In this document: in pieces, positions 27,705-35,677 of the stretch | Numbering within the stretch: position 1 is the first letter of the stretch | Layout of the letters: each line of letters opens with the position of its first letter | Source: Nitrosotalea devaniterrae | GTDB taxonomy: Archaea > Thermoproteota > Nitrososphaeria > Nitrososphaerales > Nitrosopumilaceae | DNA length: 64,000 nt | Direction of reading: 5' to 3' | NCBI GenBank assembly: GCA_900065925.1 | Contig: LN890280.1 | Span: 612,451 to 676,450, forward strand | Notes under the pieces: model-generated | The model's input: only the letters and a program-made list of their open reading frames with translations | Told to the model about the DNA's origin: nothing | Database searches by the model: none | Position numbers and translations under genes: made by a program

Positions 27705-28034
27705 TTATGTAATTGTGACAGTGTTGAACTGGCGAATTATGTTAATTGTGCTATCTGAAAGCCTGATTGTATAAGCCGCTGCATTTGGATCAGTTGATTG
27801 GGCTAGAGTCTCTGCAAACTGGGTCTTGTCTTTTCCTCTCTGATACATTCCGCCAGTTTCTTTTATGCACAAGGGAAACTTTTGCAGTTTCAGTCCACTC
27901 TGGAATAGATGTGCGATAAACTTTTTGTAGTCTTCAGGCAAGTACCAGTCTGCTTTTTTTTCCTCGCATAACATTATCCATGTGTCAATTGTATTTTGGA
28001 ATAATGCTTTGCTTCTGAGCTCTTCAAGGGTCAT
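27705..28034 (-). CDS. Hypothetical protein
   Basis: A 109-residue soluble protein starting at an ATG (MTLEELRSKALFQNTIDTW). The N-terminal half is helical with many aromatic and charged residues; the C-terminal half includes GGMYQRGKDKTQF and a serine/threonine-rich end. It starts nine nucleotides after the stop of the upstream zinc-ribbon membrane gene, so the two likely share a transcript. No domain recognised. Confidence 0.6.
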   Translation of the reverse strand: MTLEELRSKALFQNTIDTWIMLCEEKKADWYLPEDYKKFIAHLFQSGLKLQKFPLCIKETGGMYQRGKDKTQFAETLAQSTDPNAAAYTIRLSDSTINIIRQFNTVTIT

Positions 28035-28043
28035 TTTTCTTGT

Positions 28044-28370
28044 TTAGAAATCTGCTCTCTTCATTTTGGAGCCGCATCTTGGACACATTCCGCCCTTGTA
28101 TCTATTGTTGCATGCAAGGCAGATGTATTTGACACCTTGACTCTGTCCGAAAAATCCGCCACCGCCGCCAGCACCTGTGTCTGAGCCCATTCCGCCCATG
28201 CGCTTGAGTGACCTGTTTCGTAGTACCAACGGGAAGATTATGAATACTGCAAGTGCTATTGCAACTCCTGAAAATGGAGGCCAGTTTAGGTATGATGCTA
28301 ATAGCTGTATTCCTATGCTAAAAGCTAAAGAACCGAAAAGAAATACGAGATAAGTCTTGTAATTAATCAA
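28044..28370 (-). CDS. Membrane protein with C-terminal zinc ribbon
   Basis: A 108-residue protein with two hydrophobic helices (about residues 7-25 and 33-49), a basic and glycine-rich linker (GAGGGGGFFG) and a C-terminal zinc ribbon with CLAC and CPRC pairs. The start is a TTG. The arrangement resembles the small gene at 5984-6223, suggesting a recurring design of membrane-tethered zinc ribbons. Function unknown. It probably leads a short operon with the gene at 27705-28034. Confidence 0.65.
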   Translation of the reverse strand: MINYKTYLVFLFGSLAFSIGIQLLASYLNWPPFSGVAIALAVFIIFPLVLRNRSLKRMGGMGSDTGAGGGGGFFGQSQGVKYICLACNNRYKGGMCPRCGSKMKRADF

Positions 28371-28406
28371 TGATAGAGGTTACATCAAAAAGCTTATAAA
28401 TTTTTG

Positions 28407-28820
28407 TCAGGATTGGTCCGGACTTATTGTGGTTTCAAGTAGGTTGCCGTCTCTGTCATAGGCAAAAATGTCACCGTCTTCATACGGTGATTGTATTATA
28501 ATCGATACAAAACCAAAAAAATTATGCAAGTCCGTGACTGAGGGTTTTGCAAGGCCTGTTGGGTGTGAGTGGACTGTTCCGATATAGCTAGTATCAAGTG
28601 GCAAAAAAGAATGTGGAAATCCTGCAAATGTGGGCCCTGTATGAAAAAACGGTGGAATCACAAGACCGTCGACAAATATGTTACCCTTTCTTGATTTTCC
28701 CCTAAGTATCAGAATGCACTCGTTTGGGTGATTCATTTTACAATATGATAAAATTCCGTCCCTGACATCTTTTTTTATCGTTACACTTCGCCTGAGTTTT
28801 TCTTTTTTGGAGAATATCAA
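28407..28820 (-). CDS. JAMM/MPN+ metalloprotease
   Basis: A 137-residue single-domain JAB1/MPN protein. The zinc protease motif is complete: E34 (NECILIL), then H84-x-H86 (VHSHP), S94 and D97 (HxH-x7-S-x2-D). Family members cleave isopeptide bonds of ubiquitin-like proteins; archaeal members are reported to act on SAMP-like modifiers. No ubiquitin-like, E1 or proteasome gene is adjacent, so the substrate is unknown. The start is a TTG in front of a basic N-terminus (SKKEKLRRSV). Confidence 0.88.
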   Translation of the reverse strand: MIFSKKEKLRRSVTIKKDVRDGILSYCKMNHPNECILILRGKSRKGNIFVDGLVIPPFFHTGPTFAGFPHSFLPLDTSYIGTVHSHPTGLAKPSVTDLHNFFGFVSIIIQSPYEDGDIFAYDRDGNLLETTISPDQS

Positions 28821-28866
28821 CTGGAATTATTTCCGTCTAGTTACTAATTAAGATGTGATGGTATAA

Positions 28867-30144
28867 TCACTTGAGTGAGACTTTGGAGTTTGTCAGCCTT
28901 GCAAGGCCTGATTCTAGTTCTTCTATATTCTTTGACAGGGAATGGTTGCCGTCCTTTATCTCTGACTCTAGTTTCTTTTTGACTGATTCAATGTTTGCAA
29001 GATCTGCCCTTGTTTTTACAAGTTCATGTTCTTTTGACTCGAGTGATTTTATGTCAAAGACTGCCAAATCTTTTTCCAACGCTGATACTTTACCAGAATA
29101 TGATTCCTTTAGTTTGATAAACTCGTCAAGCCTTGATATTGTCTCCTGGACCTGTTCTAGTGACTTGTCTGCATCCTTGACAGAAATAGAACCTGACACT
29201 ATGGATTTTTCCACTGCTTCTAATATCTGAATTATGCCAGTCTTGTTCTGTGGAGAGATTACCTCATACGGGTTTGCAACAAGCTCGTCCATCATCTTTC
29301 TTACCGGCTTTTCAAACGACGAGATGTAGCTGTATCTTCCAAGGGGCCTTGAGATCTTTGAGAATTGGAAATCTATGACATTTTTTACTTCTGACTTTTC
29401 AGATGACATGGAATCTATCTTGTGTCGTATCTCTGAGAATTTAGAGTGGGCATCGCTTGATTTTAAATCATGAATCTGTTTTTCAAGGCTTGAGATGGTA
29501 TTTTTCAGGGTGTTTATTTCTGATATGATTTGTGACACTCTCTCGTTTTTCTGTGATATTGAATTTCTATACTCTGCAATTTTTTGACCTTTATCAATGA
29601 TATCCTTGCTTCCTGCCCTGAGGTTTTCTATGAAATTAATTGATGACTGTAACTGGTTTCTGCTTTTTGCAACCTTGGCAATCTCATCTTTGAGATTGTC
29701 TGCATATTTTTTTGCAAAGATGTGGATTATTCTAGAGTTTAGTCCGAGGACATCGCCTATCTTTTTTAGCATCTGGCTTATCTCGGAGTTGAGCAGGACT
29801 GCTTGGTCATACTTTGCAGCACTTGTAAAAGTAGATGATGTCTCTTTTTTAATAGTTGATACAATTGCGTCCTTGCCGCGTTTTACAATGACTCCCAAAT
29901 TCCTGTCCACGTCATCGAGTTTTAGGCCATCTGATTCTAGATGTAAAATCAATTCACGAATTTTTTTCTTGTGTACCTCTACTTCCTCCTTTGTAGTTTT
30001 TGCAATGCTGATTATTTCTGCAACTCGTGGAGACTCTATCTCTTGGAGCATGCTGGGTATGTCTTCAAGTGTGACTGTCTTTTCATTTTGAACTGGTGCA
30101 GTGGGCTGCTCTTGTGTTTTTTTCTTGCCAAAGCCGAAAACCAT
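28867..30144 (-). CDS. Long coiled-coil protein
   Basis: A 425-residue cytosolic protein that is helical over nearly its whole length. The N-terminus is short and basic (MVFGFGKKK), followed by a proline-rich linker, then heptad-rich segments (about residues 45-270 and 330-420) with a break near 275-320 (RPLGRYSYISSFEKP). No Walker motifs are present, so it is not an SMC ATPase. The frame begins four codons earlier with TTG, but the ATG at 30144 is preferred. A structural role is plausible but unproven. Confidence 0.7.
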   Translation of the reverse strand: MVFGFGKKKTQEQPTAPVQNEKTVTLEDIPSMLQEIESPRVAEIISIAKTTKEEVEVHKKKIRELILHLESDGLKLDDVDRNLGVIVKRGKDAIVSTIKKETSSTFTSAAKYDQAVLLNSEISQMLKKIGDVLGLNSRIIHIFAKKYADNLKDEIAKVAKSRNQLQSSINFIENLRAGSKDIIDKGQKIAEYRNSISQKNERVSQIISEINTLKNTISSLEKQIHDLKSSDAHSKFSEIRHKIDSMSSEKSEVKNVIDFQFSKISRPLGRYSYISSFEKPVRKMMDELVANPYEVISPQNKTGIIQILEAVEKSIVSGSISVKDADKSLEQVQETISRLDEFIKLKESYSGKVSALEKDLAVFDIKSLESKEHELVKTRADLANIESVKKKLESEIKDGNHSLSKNIEELESGLARLTNSKVSLK

Positions 30145-30178
30145 TTTTCTTATCAATTGTTATAGAAATGTAGGAACG

Positions 30179-30186
30179 TTAAATAT
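30179..30186 (+). promoter_or_regulatory. TATA-like box
   Basis: TTAAATAT centred about 28 nt before the ATG at 30211 gives the spacing of a leaderless archaeal promoter. Confidence 0.4.
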
Positions 30187-30210
30187 TGTGCAGAATCAAA
30201 TCATACCATC

Positions 30211-30519
30211 ATGAGTGACATCAGGCTTGTCATGATGGGTGCGGTTATCGTTTTTGCAGGCTTTGTGGTTGGGGATTTTGCAAACTCTGGTTATTCACAA
30301 TATGCACTCCAGCAGCAAAACTTTGATGATTGTTTTGATTATTCTACAGGTACAGCAGTTCATGTAAAATGCTCAGACAAGATCTATGATCATTTACTCT
30401 ATCTTATGCTAGCACTTGTTCTGCTGGGCATTGGTGGATTTGTGATATACAAGGGAATTCGTGGCAAGTGGGATCATGACGTTAAAGACAATGAGATGCT
30501 AGGACCAAAAGATACTTAG
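30211..30519 (+). CDS. Small two-TM membrane protein
   Basis: A 102-residue product. Helix 1 covers about residues 7-23 (VMMGAVIVFAGFVVGDF) and helix 2 about 64-81 (LLYLMLALVLLGIGGFVIY). The roughly 40-residue loop between them holds two cysteines that could form an extracellular disulfide. The C-terminal tail is charged. The 3' end overlaps the convergent NodB-like gene by four nucleotides. No family recognised. Confidence 0.6.
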   Translation: MSDIRLVMMGAVIVFAGFVVGDFANSGYSQYALQQQNFDDCFDYSTGTAVHVKCSDKIYDHLLYLMLALVLLGIGGFVIYKGIRGKWDHDVKDNEMLGPKDT

Positions 30520-32468
30520 CTTATGACATGTATCTCTACAAGATATTTTATCGCATTTAGGAACTCGTCATCAGAAATTGCACCTGATGACTGGAGCCTT
30601 GCATTGTGCTTTACCCAACTTGGGATTGTGGTAAAATCAGGACTAGATGTACTGTTTAGCATGGACTTGACTGTCTTGAGATATTCTGAGGTTGGGGTCT
30701 TGTCTTGCAGCCATTGTTGTGTACTTGATGCCCATGGGGCAGGTGTCTTAAACGAAGATGATATTTTGTTTATTGTAGTTATCTGGTATCCTTTGTTTCG
30801 TATACTGTCAATTAGGGACTGGAGATTTTGTATCTTTTCTATATCCGGTGCGTTTATCTTGACTGTTCCATTGCTCTGGGCAAAATCCTGGAAACTGATT
30901 GCAACTATTGCATAACCATTATTTTGCATGCTGTCCTGTACACTTGACATTATTTTTCCATTTAGCATGCTTTGATTTGTACTCTGAGATAACACCCCTG
31001 AAAATACACTTGTGGGATAGCTCTGGATTTTTTCTGTCAAGTTTTGCGGAATCTTTAGTGTTGAGCTACTACTTATGATGCGAATGTTGTCATCTACCAT
31101 TGCATAAAATGTATCGTCATTAGTTTTTTCATATGGTGGCATGAATACTGATGGGCTGATGCCAAGCAAACTTGAGATCTTGGCTTTTGATTCCTGTAAC
31201 AGCTGCGACTGTTGATCCTTGGTAAATGTAGTAAAGTCTTCAAAACTCCATCCGTTTATTGCGATATCTATATTGCCCGTCTGAGCTTTTGATTCTAGAT
31301 AACCTACAAGCTTTGAATCATTTCCAAATGCTTTTCCTATTGTTCCAACCGTAATTCCTGCATCCTTGCTGTCAAAACTATCTATTACCTTGATCTGTAT
31401 GTTATCAAGCCAATAATCCTGGATATTATCAAGTCTGAATGCAACACAGTTGCAAGTAGGCATTGGTGGTTTTGATACTGGTGGAACTGGAGTAATAGTG
31501 GGGGGAACAATCGGTGGAACTGTAACTGGACTGGATGAATTTGTTACTGGAGTCTTGAGGGTTGGCAGTATCTGAAAAGTTGTAAGCAACCCGTTTTCTG
31601 TTATGCTTGCAGTTGCCCACTCTGAATTGTCATCTGTTTTTGTGACCTTTAGGGTATAATCACCAACTTTTAGGTTGGAAAAGTATGCCTCTCCACGAGA
31701 CGTGACAGGCGAGTCTGTTATCTTGTTACCTATGCTATCATACAGGCTGACTGAAAACTTGCCATCCGAAGACGTGACTGGGTGTGATTGTACATTTAGA
31801 ACTTTGACTGTTACAAGTGAATTTACAACAGGAGGCCAGTTTGTTGTTATCTTTATCTCTTGACCTATTCCTGGTCTGAGATATACTGGAGAATCAGAAT
31901 ATACTAGATGGTTGCCAATGTGCACATCTACGATATAATGATCATCTGGTGCTGTAGTGGGTTCTATCCAAAAACGCAGCGAGTCCCCATTTGCATTTGT
32001 GGGACTGTGACCCCATGTCTTGTTGTCTTGTGCTGCTCTGACGTATACTGTGGCGTTTACAATTGGTGTGACACCATCATTGTAGAAAGCATTGATACGC
32101 ATTCCTCCTGGTAGTGGTAGATTAATTGTTACATCCTGGTGAGACTGTTGCAAGTTGACATATGTCACACTGGAATACATGCTGTTTGCATACGCCACAA
32201 TTTTGTACTGGTGGTTTATCGGAAGCGCAACAATGTTGAAAGGATTTCCTGTGATTGATTCAATTACTTTGTAGGGTGTTTGCGTAGAATCTTGGTAAAT
32301 CTTGAGCGAGACTGGCCAATAGTCCGCAGTGTCTCCATTTGTATAAGTCAGGGTAACTGCAATGGAACCACTTGTATCTGCAAATACGGTAACTGGAACT
32401 AGAGCAAGCAAAAATACTGGAAGCAATTTTAAAATGAATTTTTTATCTGATGATCTAAATATATTCAA
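30516..32468 (-). CDS. Secreted NodB-like polysaccharide deacetylase homologue, catalytic residues lost
   Basis: A 650-residue exported protein with a signal peptide (residues 9-30). Residues about 31-315 form carboxypeptidase-regulatory/Ig-like beta domains (PGGMRINAFYNDGVTPI; VKVLNVQSHPVTSSDGKF). A proline-rich linker (about 316-340) leads to a NodB-like domain beginning CNCVAFRLDNIQDYWLDN. Compared with the paralogue at 34139, the catalytic RMDD is RLDN and the NHGWNHEHF metal motif is INGWSFEDF, so deacetylase activity is unlikely. The C-terminus ends with an IPSWVKHNARLQSSG motif common in thaumarchaeal secreted proteins. It lies 95 nt downstream of the glycosyltransferase. TTG start. 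Confidence 0.82.
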   Translation of the reverse strand: MNIFRSSDKKFILKLLPVFLLALVPVTVFADTSGSIAVTLTYTNGDTADYWPVSLKIYQDSTQTPYKVIESITGNPFNIVALPINHQYKIVAYANSMYSSVTYVNLQQSHQDVTINLPLPGGMRINAFYNDGVTPIVNATVYVRAAQDNKTWGHSPTNANGDSLRFWIEPTTAPDDHYIVDVHIGNHLVYSDSPVYLRPGIGQEIKITTNWPPVVNSLVTVKVLNVQSHPVTSSDGKFSVSLYDSIGNKITDSPVTSRGEAYFSNLKVGDYTLKVTKTDDNSEWATASITENGLLTTFQILPTLKTPVTNSSSPVTVPPIVPPTITPVPPVSKPPMPTCNCVAFRLDNIQDYWLDNIQIKVIDSFDSKDAGITVGTIGKAFGNDSKLVGYLESKAQTGNIDIAINGWSFEDFTTFTKDQQSQLLQESKAKISSLLGISPSVFMPPYEKTNDDTFYAMVDDNIRIISSSSTLKIPQNLTEKIQSYPTSVFSGVLSQSTNQSMLNGKIMSSVQDSMQNNGYAIVAISFQDFAQSNGTVKINAPDIEKIQNLQSLIDSIRNKGYQITTINKISSSFKTPAPWASSTQQWLQDKTPTSEYLKTVKSMLNSTSSPDFTTIPSWVKHNARLQSSGAISDDEFLNAIKYLVEIHVIS

Positions 32469-32563
32469 ATGATTTCTATCTTGTTGCAGTTGCGCCTACT
32501 ATTAAAAGTCAATATTGAAAGATTCGACAAACATGTTTGATTTTTAAAAATGACATGTCCCGT

Positions 32564-34018
32564 TCACATGCCGACTCTATCCGCACTGGTCCAAACTTGC
32601 TCTTTTTTGCTCAGGTGCTCAAAGACTGCACCAAGAAGTAAAATGTCCAGGATCTGCTTGAATCCTACTACAAGAAAGACTCCATATAGGATTAGCCTTG
32701 GGTCCTCATTGTCAAGTCTTACTGCAAGTGCCACTTGAAGGCACTGCAAGGCTGAAAATATTGCAAACATCAAGAGTACAAACAACCAGTCGCCAAAGAT
32801 TCCTGCGTATATTGCACTGGCTATTGTTATAAAACTGACAAATGGCATGATACAGCTTGCAAATATCATGTATGGAAAGACAAACTTTTGCAAGATTCCA
32901 AATCTTGGGTTTGTCAGTGCATCTGAATGTCTTGAAAACACTTGAAGGTTGCCGCCATACCACCTCTTTCTCTGCTTGTACATGCTCTTCAGTGATTCTG
33001 GTGCCTCGGTGTATGCAGTTGCATCTGTGCTTCCAGCTATGAACATTTTTGTCTTGAGAATTTTTAGTGTCAGATCAAAGTCTTCTACAAGTGTATCCTT
33101 GTGGTAGCTTCCGATATCTTCTAGAATGTTTTTTCTAAATGACCCTAGTGCACCTGGCACAACAGAGATTGCGCCAAAGACATCAAGTGCTCTTCTTGCA
33201 ATTTGAATCCCTGCAACATATTCTATTGCCTGGCACCATGTGAGCCAGTTCTTTCTGTTTCTAACCTTGATGTTTCCTGCAACTGCTGCCACGTTTTTGT
33301 CACTTGAAAATCCCTTGACTAGGTGTATGAGTGACTCGTGTCCAATTATTGTATCTGCATCAACAATTACAATTATCTCTCCTGTTGCATATGCAAGACC
33401 AAAGTTTATCGCACTGGCCTTTCCGCCATTAGTTTTTTGCAAAACCTTTGCCTGTTTTTTGTACTTGGACATCATCTCCCATGTCTTGTCCTTACTTCCG
33501 TCATCAACTAGGATGATTTCCTTGTCTTGGTATTTTGTATCGATGATTGCTTGGATTGTTCTTTCAATTACTTTTTCTTCGTTGTATGCAGGAACTATTA
33601 TTGATACACGGGGAAATGATGCCAGTTCTGGAATTGACATCTCACGGCGCTTGCTGTATAGTGCAAGCGGAATAAACAAGAGTGTGCTCCAAAACGTCAT
33701 GGTCAGACCCCATAGTAAAATTGCCTTTGATATTGAATTTTGGATGTGATATGTGTCAAAGCCTACTATTGCTCCGAGCACAATGGGGGATGCTAGAAGG
33801 AAAATGAAAAAAGGCGAAGGAAACTTTCTTGTATTACTTGATCTTATGACCTGTCCTCTTTGCAAGGCTACCATTTGGTACATCACAACTGCTGCGCCAA
33901 GGCCTATTGCAATCATGCTGATGACAGAGAAGACCAAAAATGCCATCAATATCAAAAGAGAAAAAATTGCTCCGCTTATCACTAGTAAGATAGGATCGAA
34001 TCTTTTTTGATGCGACAC
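32564..34018 (-). CDS. Processive family-2 glycosyltransferase (polysaccharide synthase)
   Basis: A 484-residue membrane enzyme resembling poly-N-acetylglucosamine and hyaluronan synthases. Several N-terminal helices precede the catalytic domain, which begins FPRVSIIVPAYNEEKVIE. All processive GT2 motifs are visible: VDDGSKD, the DxD in VIVDADT, the catalytic ED in VEDFDL and QRKRW (QxxRW). Three or four helices follow and would form the export channel. It should polymerise a UDP-sugar and extrude the chain. The start is a GTG. It shares a strand with the degenerate NodB gene and is divergent from the active-looking NodB gene. Confidence 0.9.
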   Translation of the reverse strand: MSHQKRFDPILLVISGAIFSLLILMAFLVFSVISMIAIGLGAAVVMYQMVALQRGQVIRSSNTRKFPSPFFIFLLASPIVLGAIVGFDTYHIQNSISKAILLWGLTMTFWSTLLFIPLALYSKRREMSIPELASFPRVSIIVPAYNEEKVIERTIQAIIDTKYQDKEIILVDDGSKDKTWEMMSKYKKQAKVLQKTNGGKASAINFGLAYATGEIIVIVDADTIIGHESLIHLVKGFSSDKNVAAVAGNIKVRNRKNWLTWCQAIEYVAGIQIARRALDVFGAISVVPGALGSFRKNILEDIGSYHKDTLVEDFDLTLKILKTKMFIAGSTDATAYTEAPESLKSMYKQRKRWYGGNLQVFSRHSDALTNPRFGILQKFVFPYMIFASCIMPFVSFITIASAIYAGIFGDWLFVLLMFAIFSALQCLQVALAVRLDNEDPRLILYGVFLVVGFKQILDILLLGAVFEHLSKKEQVWTSADRVGM

Positions 34019-34077
34019 GCATGATGTAAAACCCTGATGTTAATTGGTGTTTTGTGCAGTCTTGGTATGTGATAAAA

Positions 34078-34093
34078 TGTTCGTATCTGAACA
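34078..34093. promoter_or_regulatory. Inverted repeat in divergent promoter region
   Basis: The perfect inverted repeat TGTTC-GTATCT-GAACA lies between the divergent glycosyltransferase and NodB genes. Its position allows joint control of both; no regulator is identified. Confidence 0.35.
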
Positions 34094-34138
34094 CCTAATT
34101 ACATAAGTAATGGAAAGTACGAAATTCTGATACGCTTG

Positions 34139-35677
34139 ATGAAAATAATTCTTGTCTTGGTTTTTCTGGTATCCTTAGGTGTTGTCCACCAAGCACATGC
34201 CATACCGTCTTGTAATTGTGTTGCATTTAGGATGGATGACCTCCAGGACTATTGGCTAGATGATGTGCAAGTGGGTACAATAAATGAGTTTGAGCACAAA
34301 AACGCAAGCCTGACAGTTGGAATAATTGGAAATTATTTTGGCCAAGATGATAAAGTAGTTGGGTCAATATCTAATGCACTAGGACATGACCTGCCAAAAT
34401 TTGCAGTTGCAAACCATGGTTGGAACCATGAACACTTTAACACTTTTTCACGTGATGAACAGTCTGCACTGATTCATAATGCTAACCAAAAGATTTCAAG
34501 TATACTTGGAATATTGCCAAATATCTTCATTGCACCGTACAATGCAATTAACAATGACACTATCATTTCTCTGCTTGACAATAACATGGTGTACCTGAGT
34601 ACCAATGAGACTCAGGATACACCGCCTTATGTCCTGTCTGGTGCAGCATTTTTTAGATTTCCTGAAACTGCTGAGATTGGGGACCTGAACCGGGAAAATA
34701 CTGCCTGGGTGAGCGTAAATCATGACCAGACATATGCTGCGGTTCTTCGAAGCTTGGTCAAGTATGGGTTTGCTGTAGTCTTATTGCACCCACAAGACTA
34801 TGCCAACAAAAAATCTGGTCCTGTGTACGATAATATGATAAACCAAACACAGATTCATGAGCTTGATCTGCTAATCGATAAAATACGAAATGATGGGTAT
34901 ACAATGGTGACAATGGATGACATTTCTAAAAATGCCATATATGATACAAAATATCCAAAATGGCTTGACAGAAATCTAGACTTGTACTCTAAGGGAAATG
35001 TAACTGATGCTGATATGACAAACTCTATAGAATATTTGAAAAGTAAAAAAATAATCTCAACTAGCCTTGCTGGCGGAAAATATCCTTTGCACCAAAATAT
35101 AGTAACTACGTACTTTTGGGTAGGTGAGCCTGCTGATGCAGACAATTCGTACAATGATAATATCTCCAGTGCCTGGGATGGTGACTGGACAAGTCACTAT
35201 GGCGGTGTAGATGATCCCAAGAACCGTAATGGGTATCTTCCGTCACAGTTTACTCCAAAAGAAAATCCGTTTTACTTTGCATTGCCGTACAATGATTTTT
35301 ACGATAATGGAACACGCAAGGCAGACTCGTATGGTACCGTATACTGGGGTTCCCAACAATCATGGAACGATTCTGAATCGATGCTAAAGAACAAGTGGAT
35401 TGAAATCACAAAGGGTAACAAGACTGCGTATGCCCAGTGGGAAGATTCAGGTCCGTTTGTGTATGATGACTCTGGATATGTATTTGGAAACTCTTCTCCA
35501 GAGAATACCCTGAACCATAATGCTGGACTAGATGTGTCCCCCGCAGTAAAAGATTACATCAATTTGCAACATGGAAAAAATGTTGTAGACTGGAGGTTTG
35601 TTGATTTTGGTGATGTTCCCGATGGGCCATGGAAAGATGTTGTAACAACTTCCCAAGTGTTCCATCCACAGCACTAG
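34139..35677 (+). CDS. Secreted NodB-type polysaccharide deacetylase with C-terminal beta-barrel-like domain
   Basis: A 512-residue exported protein (signal peptide residues 1-22). The NodB-like domain starts CNCVAFRMDDLQDYWLDD and keeps the catalytic aspartates and a metal-binding NHGWNHEHF motif (HxxxH) near residue 99. A short helical segment (KYPKWLDRNLDLYSKGN, about 280) resembles the thaumarchaeal surface motif. Residues about 315-512 form a separate domain with KNKWIEITKGNKTAYAQWED, SGPF and GLDVSPAVKDYI, reminiscent of RlpA-like double-psi barrels. The ATG at 34139 follows a TTG. It is expected to remove acetyl groups from an extracellular glycan. Confidence 0.85.
   Translation: MKIILVLVFLVSLGVVHQAHAIPSCNCVAFRMDDLQDYWLDDVQVGTINEFEHKNASLTVGIIGNYFGQDDKVVGSISNALGHDLPKFAVANHGWNHEHFNTFSRDEQSALIHNANQKISSILGILPNIFIAPYNAINNDTIISLLDNNMVYLSTNETQDTPPYVLSGAAFFRFPETAEIGDLNRENTAWVSVNHDQTYAAVLRSLVKYGFAVVLLHPQDYANKKSGPVYDNMINQTQIHELDLLIDKIRNDGYTMVTMDDISKNAIYDTKYPKWLDRNLDLYSKGNVTDADMTNSIEYLKSKKIISTSLAGGKYPLHQNIVTTYFWVGEPADADNSYNDNISSAWDGDWTSHYGGVDDPKNRNGYLPSQFTPKENPFYFALPYNDFYDNGTRKADSYGTVYWGSQQSWNDSESMLKNKWIEITKGNKTAYAQWEDSGPFVYDDSGYVFGNSSPENTLNHNAGLDVSPAVKDYINLQHGKNVVDWRFVDFGDVPDGPWKDVVTTSQVFHPQH

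Follow-up and report, generated by a model that had tools for sequence, protein, structure and literature searches.

What does a membrane glycosyltransferase make when it lies between two related, secreted NodB-like proteins in an archaeal genome, and what does each of those proteins contribute? The question is raised by three genes of Nitrosotalea devaniterrae, here called A, B, and C, which together fill positions 30516-35677 of a 64,000-nucleotide stretch of DNA (the window, G000:C1:612451-676450, in a genome that is a single contig of 1,805,304 bp). A preliminary description had taken them for a compact glycan synthase and deacetylase unit, resembling bacterial poly-N-acetylglucosamine (PNAG) systems. 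Based on sequence comparison, we lean with moderate confidence towards a related answer: the locus would make and remodel a beta-linked N-acetylhexosamine surface polymer by means of the synthase B, the glycan-handling protein A, and the deacetylase C. Judged by its motifs, A in Nitrosotalea-type loci is a pseudo-deacetylase, which has lost its metal ligands and kept its fold.

The three open reading frames (ORFs) lie exactly where they had been placed, with B and then A on the minus strand, 95 bp apart, and C divergent from B. The earlier claim that two paralogous secreted NodB-like proteins flank a glycosyltransferase family 2 (GT2) synthase agrees with these coordinates and with the family scores. 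A and C match PF01522 with 30.4 and 36.3 bits, respectively (cut-off 23.1), are the only PF01522 matches in the whole 1.8-Mb genome, and are 32% identical over 322 amino acids (aa; E 3e-51). Each has one N-terminal hydrophobic segment; all such segments in this study were called by hydropathy, a crude method.

Carbohydrate esterase family 4 (CE4) enzymes depend on a pair of Asp in motif 1, a pair of His in motif 2, and one His in motif 5 (PMC10967932, in the text available, as for the other papers cited for their content). In A, RLDN stands for RxDD, INGWSFED stands for NHGWNHE, and the late (motif-5) His is gone. To compare relatives, we took motif columns from MAFFT alignments; the first of these was limited to domains with 150 or more aligned residues and omitted most loci duplicating G-handle regions. 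In all, 101 ORFs gave 183 domain hits, many of them consisting of a short C-terminal module alone, and the tallies omit domains gapped at a metal column. The full residue set, that is, the Asp-His-His metal site with the motif-5 His, was complete in 13 of 13 C proteins and 10 of 11 unlinked NodB proteins, compared with 6 of 59 synthase-linked A ORFs (two loci, L088 and L098, contribute two apiece). Among the 17 Nitrosotalea-type A loci (genus g1 with 14, one of them the window, and genus g5 with 3), none has it: motif 2 reads INGWSFE or similar, with both His lost, and motif 5 has no His. Since A is without the CE4 metal ligands, C is the sole plausible deacetylase of the pair, and the idea that both flanking proteins are working deacetylases is not supported. 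C, the only intact PF01522 protein of the genome, seems to be the deacetylase that does the predicted chemistry of the locus.

Loss of the metal site has not been accompanied by loss of the domain. The ratio of nonsynonymous to synonymous substitution rates (dN/dS) for the NodB domain of A was 0.15 to 0.18 in five pairs, which indicates purifying selection and therefore a domain that is not decaying; the values were 0.12 to 0.19 for the N-terminal half of A, 0.10 to 0.14 for C, and 0.085 to 0.145 for B. In the predicted model of A (overall pLDDT 69, with higher values for the NodB part), the NodB fold is intact and forms a good barrel. It matched 3rxz (VIA Z 21.6, root-mean-square deviation (rmsd) 3.3, 227 aligned residues) and 7bkf, which is titled a CE4 pseudoenzyme (VIA Z 20.3).

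Many other genera have an A with two NodB domains in tandem and a B with a longer N-terminus. The commonest first domain of these tandems has lost only the second motif-2 His, and by its remaining residues it may still be active. We built a midpoint-rooted domain tree from 117 of the 183 domains, those of at least 180 residues each. In it, Nitrosotalea-type A clusters with degenerate second domains from several of the tandem A proteins; C clusters with the unlinked NodB proteins. This suggests an old partnership between the synthase and the dead NodB domain, with an intact domain supplied separately. Two tandem-NodB A proteins (L064 and L065; 1284 and 1433 aa) also carry long pentapeptide-repeat tails.

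B matches the Pfam family Glycos_transf_2 with 121 bits, and its best NCBIfam model is TIGR03937 PgaC_IcaA, with 211 bits over aa 122-481. It contains DDGS at 172, DADT at 220, EDFD at 312, and QRKRW at 349, so that the D, DxD, ED, and QxxRW patterns are all present, as they are in 56 of 61 B ORFs. Three hydrophobic segments precede the catalytic domain (10-28, 69-87, and 100-118) and three follow it (385-403, 412-430, and 447-465). The preliminary description of B as a PgaC/IcaA-like GT2 with complete motifs was thus right about the motifs and the best model; the score, however, is half of the equivalog cut-off of 422.3 bits and thus far below it. In B orthologues from other genera (L062, L063, and L082), an N-terminal extension (the N-terminal 130-215 aa) precedes the first membrane segment and contains a CxxC...HxxC pattern that resembles a small zinc finger, with no Pfam match there.

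The pairing of B with A is widespread. In our family set of 136 genomes (completeness setting 90%), a B orthologue occurs in 53 genomes at 55 places (E at most 1e-60), and A lies directly downstream on the same strand at 52 of them. The other three are two contig ends (L100, L107) and one second, divergent copy (L117). Loci were retrieved by matching A, B, or C, and the linkage count that is unselected on A and C is the one over these 55 places. The compact synthase and NodB unit therefore does have the conserved neighborhood that had been proposed as its test. C is narrower in distribution: its C-terminal domain, C_ct, was found in 14 of 400 genomes of the class, all in two genera. C stands divergent beside B in 11 of these 14, but not in G096 nor in G094, which has no B; the remaining genome is G320.

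Some Nitrosotalea-type genomes have B and A and no C. In G105, which is 97% complete, A is the sole PF01522 match, and in G115 a canonical NodB protein (74 bits) lies upstream of B with one gene between, roughly at the place of C. An exchangeable enzyme beside a fixed pseudoenzyme would fit this pattern, which comes from few genomes. A more general proposal, which we put forward tentatively and hold to be less likely than not to be correct in full, is that a conserved NodB pseudoenzyme is the obligatory noncatalytic partner in archaeal synthase operons. Catalysis would come from an exchangeable intact deacetylase (the semi-intact first domain of tandem proteins, C in Nitrosotalea-type loci, the canonical NodB protein in G115), a double-psi-barrel protein would travel along, and C_ct would found an undescribed glycan-acting family common to bacteria and archaea.

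The nature of the polymer is suggested by neighbors of A in relatives. At two loci of genus g12 (L084:6899-8269 and L109:6252-7622), A has beside it a GH18 protein whose GVD[LI]DWE motif is intact. GH18 enzymes use the N-acetyl group of the substrate and cut beta-linked GlcNAc, and GT2 enzymes invert, giving beta links; together, these properties point to a beta-linked N-acetylhexosamine polymer. A protein with a 3D domain (PF06725), or a BLAST relative of one, lies beside or inside the B-A pair at 11 loci of other genera. Of seven such proteins scanned, five scored over the PF06725 cut-off (L081, L101, L065, L116, and L083, the last of which is not a B locus), and the domain was absent in two (L063, L106).

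In the mechanism we propose, B would sit in the membrane, polymerize UDP-N-acetylhexosamine inside the cell, and extrude the chain, with the beta links predicted by its family and motifs. A would be exported, is probably co-transcribed with B, and may bind or guide the emerging chain via its metal-less NodB fold. C, from the divergent gene, would deacetylate the chain with its intact NodB domain, and C_ct would bind or cut the same polymer.

The C_ct domain is conserved well beyond these archaea. Among named records, those closest to C as a whole belong to Candidatus Nitrosotalea (up to 84% identity), and bacterial relatives of C_ct are 47-58% identical in the best segment (loci titled Gracilibacteria, Deltaproteobacteria, and Chthoniobacterales). 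In the bacterial class of G406, which bears one of the last-named loci, C_ct was found in 157 of 286 genomes, mostly within open frames of about 250-430 aa (L134-L154), and in two other bacteria it lies N-terminal to a GH114 domain (282 and 279 bits). C_ct has no Pfam, NCBIfam, or PDB sequence match beyond chance rows: against PDB sequences, the A3 profile gave one chance-level row and the A4 profile gave none, and a Pfam search with every A3 member gave one chance row. Searches of phages with C and of plasmids with C_ct yielded nothing useful. Its invariant positions include YAQWEDxGPF and AG-D-SPA, motifs reminiscent of the catalytic region in RlpA and other double-psi-barrel proteins. The AlphaFold model of C, a poor one built from 15 sequences, places C_ct near kiwellin, with Z 7.7 to 6fpg (rmsd 3.7, 95 aligned residues, 24% identity) and Z 7.4 to 4pmk and 4x9u; the kiwellin matches overall have 21-24% identity over 84-95 residues. 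Foldseek added a row for SPI (5ntb). On this computed evidence, chiefly a low-confidence model, C_ct is perhaps a double-psi beta-barrel; at the sequence level neither the DPBB nor the 3D models of Pfam matched it. We also considered whether C_ct is homologous to the 3D-domain neighbors, which is unproved (hhalign probability 0.1%).

Several observations weigh against the proposed mechanism. C is not always beside B: at L055 and L121 it lies elsewhere, and the C of L057 comes from a genome that lacks B. GH18 occurs in just 4 of the 136 family genomes and is absent from N. devaniterrae itself, so the step to a beta-linked N-acetylhexosamine polymer is one by analogy. Other genera include six A-linked NodB proteins with the full motif set (L063, L105, L110, L112, L118, and L115), and A is therefore not a pseudoenzyme everywhere. 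The model of C has a pLDDT of 47, so its fold matches carry little weight. Finally, the fusion of C_ct in bacteria to GH114, an alpha-galactosaminidase family (PMC12054363), sits awkwardly with a beta-linked product of B.

Of the alternatives, the one that survives best, which we nevertheless consider unlikely, is that B glycosylates a lipid or the S-layer and that the NodB proteins trim that glycan. Many GT2 enzymes do so, and several lipid- or protein-glycan GT2 models in NCBIfam match B too, with lower scores than PgaC_IcaA. The genome paper of N. devanaterra discusses surface glycosylation clusters (PMC4836417). However, QRKRW and the six hydrophobic segments fit processive synthases, and the extracellular GH18 and 3D-domain neighbors in relatives fit a secreted polymer.

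The next alternative is that C acts for a different polymer and adjoins B by chance. A Pel/galactosaminogalactan-like locus lies outside the window, at C1 ~1,285,000-1,305,000 (L125, L126). It contains a PelF GT4 (159.9 bits, cut-off 100), which is the sole PelF match in the genome and is far from the window (C1:1291044-1292438), an epimerase resembling GalE (203 bits, short of the model's cut-off), GlmS, a PIG-L protein, and three proteins of the Spherulin4 family (GH135). One Spherulin4 protein is fused to a domain 48% identical to the N-terminal part of A. A role for C on an alpha-1,4-GalNAc chain made there would agree with the bacterial C_ct-GH114 fusions, and because C is the only intact PF01522 protein of the genome, some cross-talk with the Pel-like locus is possible. 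The distributions argue otherwise. PelF occurs in 9 of the 136 family genomes, all within the 10 that have Spherulin4; only 3 of the 9 C genomes in this set (which include G403) have PelF (G000, G117, and G015), 6 of the 9 PelF genomes are without C, and 8 of the 9 C genomes have B. C and PelF do not track each other, and therefore C most likely serves the product of B. We rejected deacetylation of the PelF-type polymer as the principal role of C and regard this alternative as distinctly improbable.

Less probable again is a true archaeal pga/ica system, in which B would be a poly-beta-1,6-GlcNAc synthase and A and C would be PgaB/IcaB-like deacetylases. The best model of B speaks for it, but B falls short of the cut-off by a wide margin, A has no metal site, and C has the motif order MT1-MT2-MT3-MT5 of the NodB1 type; PNAG deacetylases are NodB2, with MT5 before MT1 (PMC10967932). 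The PNAG analogy of the preliminary description does not withstand these comparisons. A 102-aa gene with two transmembrane (TM) segments beside A (30211-30519) was considered as a PgaD and rejected: it travels with a block of coiled-coil, JAB, and zinc-ribbon genes (28044-30156), which it follows, and is missing at B-A loci such as L064-L066, L068, and L071. Its absence from many such loci makes it a poor PgaD candidate, a judgment reached with no dedicated PgaD model search. The weakest alternative, that A is an enzyme by a metal-independent route like the NodB-fold allantoinase PuuE (3cl6), has in its favor a fold match of Z 19.5 and the first Asp of motif 1, which is retained in 16 of 17 Nitrosotalea-type loci, but it is very improbable given that both motif-2 His and the motif-5 His are gone and that 3cl6 retains catalytically significant residues of motifs 4 and 5 (PMC10967932).

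The features of the locus are collected in Table 1. The short C-terminal module of about 35 aa is common to A, C (aa 274-308), the GH18 protein, and some 3D proteins (L084, L101, L110, and others). Of 153 window frames scanned, A and C alone match it, a match that holds by construction because the model was seeded with both; the module is possibly a surface-anchoring or sorting tag. In the window at 27705-30519, zinc-ribbon, JAB-domain, coiled-coil, and two-TM genes adjoin A even in distant genera (L063, L080), and the block is missing at other B-A loci.

Table 1. Positions in the window of the three genes, their domains, and the B/C intergenic region.
Feature	Position	Strand	Description
Gene A	30516-32468	-	Secreted protein: N-terminal beta-sandwich domains, degenerate NodB-like domain, ~35-aa C-terminal module
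NodB-like domain of A, degenerate	30741-31460	-	aa 337-576
Gene B	32564-34018	-	Membrane GT2 bearing the motifs of a processive synthase and hydrophobic segments (3 + 3)
B/C intergenic region	34019-34135		117 bp between the divergent B-A pair and C
Gene C	34136-35677	+	Secreted NodB deacetylase (predicted), CE4 motifs intact, fused to an undescribed C-terminal domain
NodB domain of C	34211-34930	+	aa 26-265; RMDD, NHGWNHE, APYN, LHPQD
C_ct, ~200-aa C-terminal domain of C	35066-35674	+	aa 311-513; invariant YAQWEDxGPF, AGxDxSPA

Ammonia-oxidizing archaea are abundant organisms with poorly characterized surface polymers, and this locus offers a defined, conserved three-gene unit to test. In N. 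viennensis, exported polysaccharide deacetylases and glycosyltransferases were up-regulated on filters and linked to extracellular polymeric substances (EPS; PMC11561398), and a GH114 enzyme has been reported in Nitrosomirales (PMC10811736). No word in the main text of the genome paper on N. devanaterra starts with "polysaccharide" or "deacetylase" (PMC4836417). The literature we searched, mostly open access, yielded no account of C_ct, nor of a synthase operon that includes a conserved pseudo-deacetylase. A clearly exemplifies a deacetylase fold that selection has maintained although the metal site is lost, with an intact paralogue alongside, and the A/C pair would let a noncatalytic role of NodB proteins in polymer secretion be tested directly. 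C_ct, for its part, is a common bacterial domain without an entry in the family libraries searched.

Among known systems, pgaABCD and icaADBC share with this locus a GT2, for which PgaC/IcaA is the best model, paired with a secreted NodB-fold protein; they differ in the score of B, in the NodB2 rather than NodB1 type of their deacetylases, in the metal site that the operon-linked A has lost, and in the extra C_ct domain found here. Fungal galactosaminogalactan and bacterial Pel share the logic of a deacetylase with a galactosaminidase, which is echoed by the bacterial C_ct-GH114 fusions and by the A-type N-terminal domain on a Spherulin4 protein of this genome. The Pel synthase PelF, however, is a GT4, whereas B is a GT2, and the PelF of this genome is encoded elsewhere and does not track C. 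Kiwellin and other double-psi beta-barrel proteins resemble C_ct in a low-confidence model, with Z below 8, the identity and length given above, and no DPBB match in sequence. Parallels to A are offered by CE4 pseudoenzymes and inactive CE4 members, namely BA3943 (7bkf), BA0150 (4m1b), and EcCDA (2vyo). EcCDA, without both motif-2 His, is probably inactive, and BA0150 is catalytically inert (PMC10967932), so loss of CE4 activity is already known for single proteins; for none of the three does the available text mention a coupled synthase operon or an accompanying intact paralogue. Like A, all three combine the NodB fold with lost catalytic or metal residues; EcCDA shares with A the loss of both motif-2 His, and the fold of A is closely matched by 7bkf and 4m1b.

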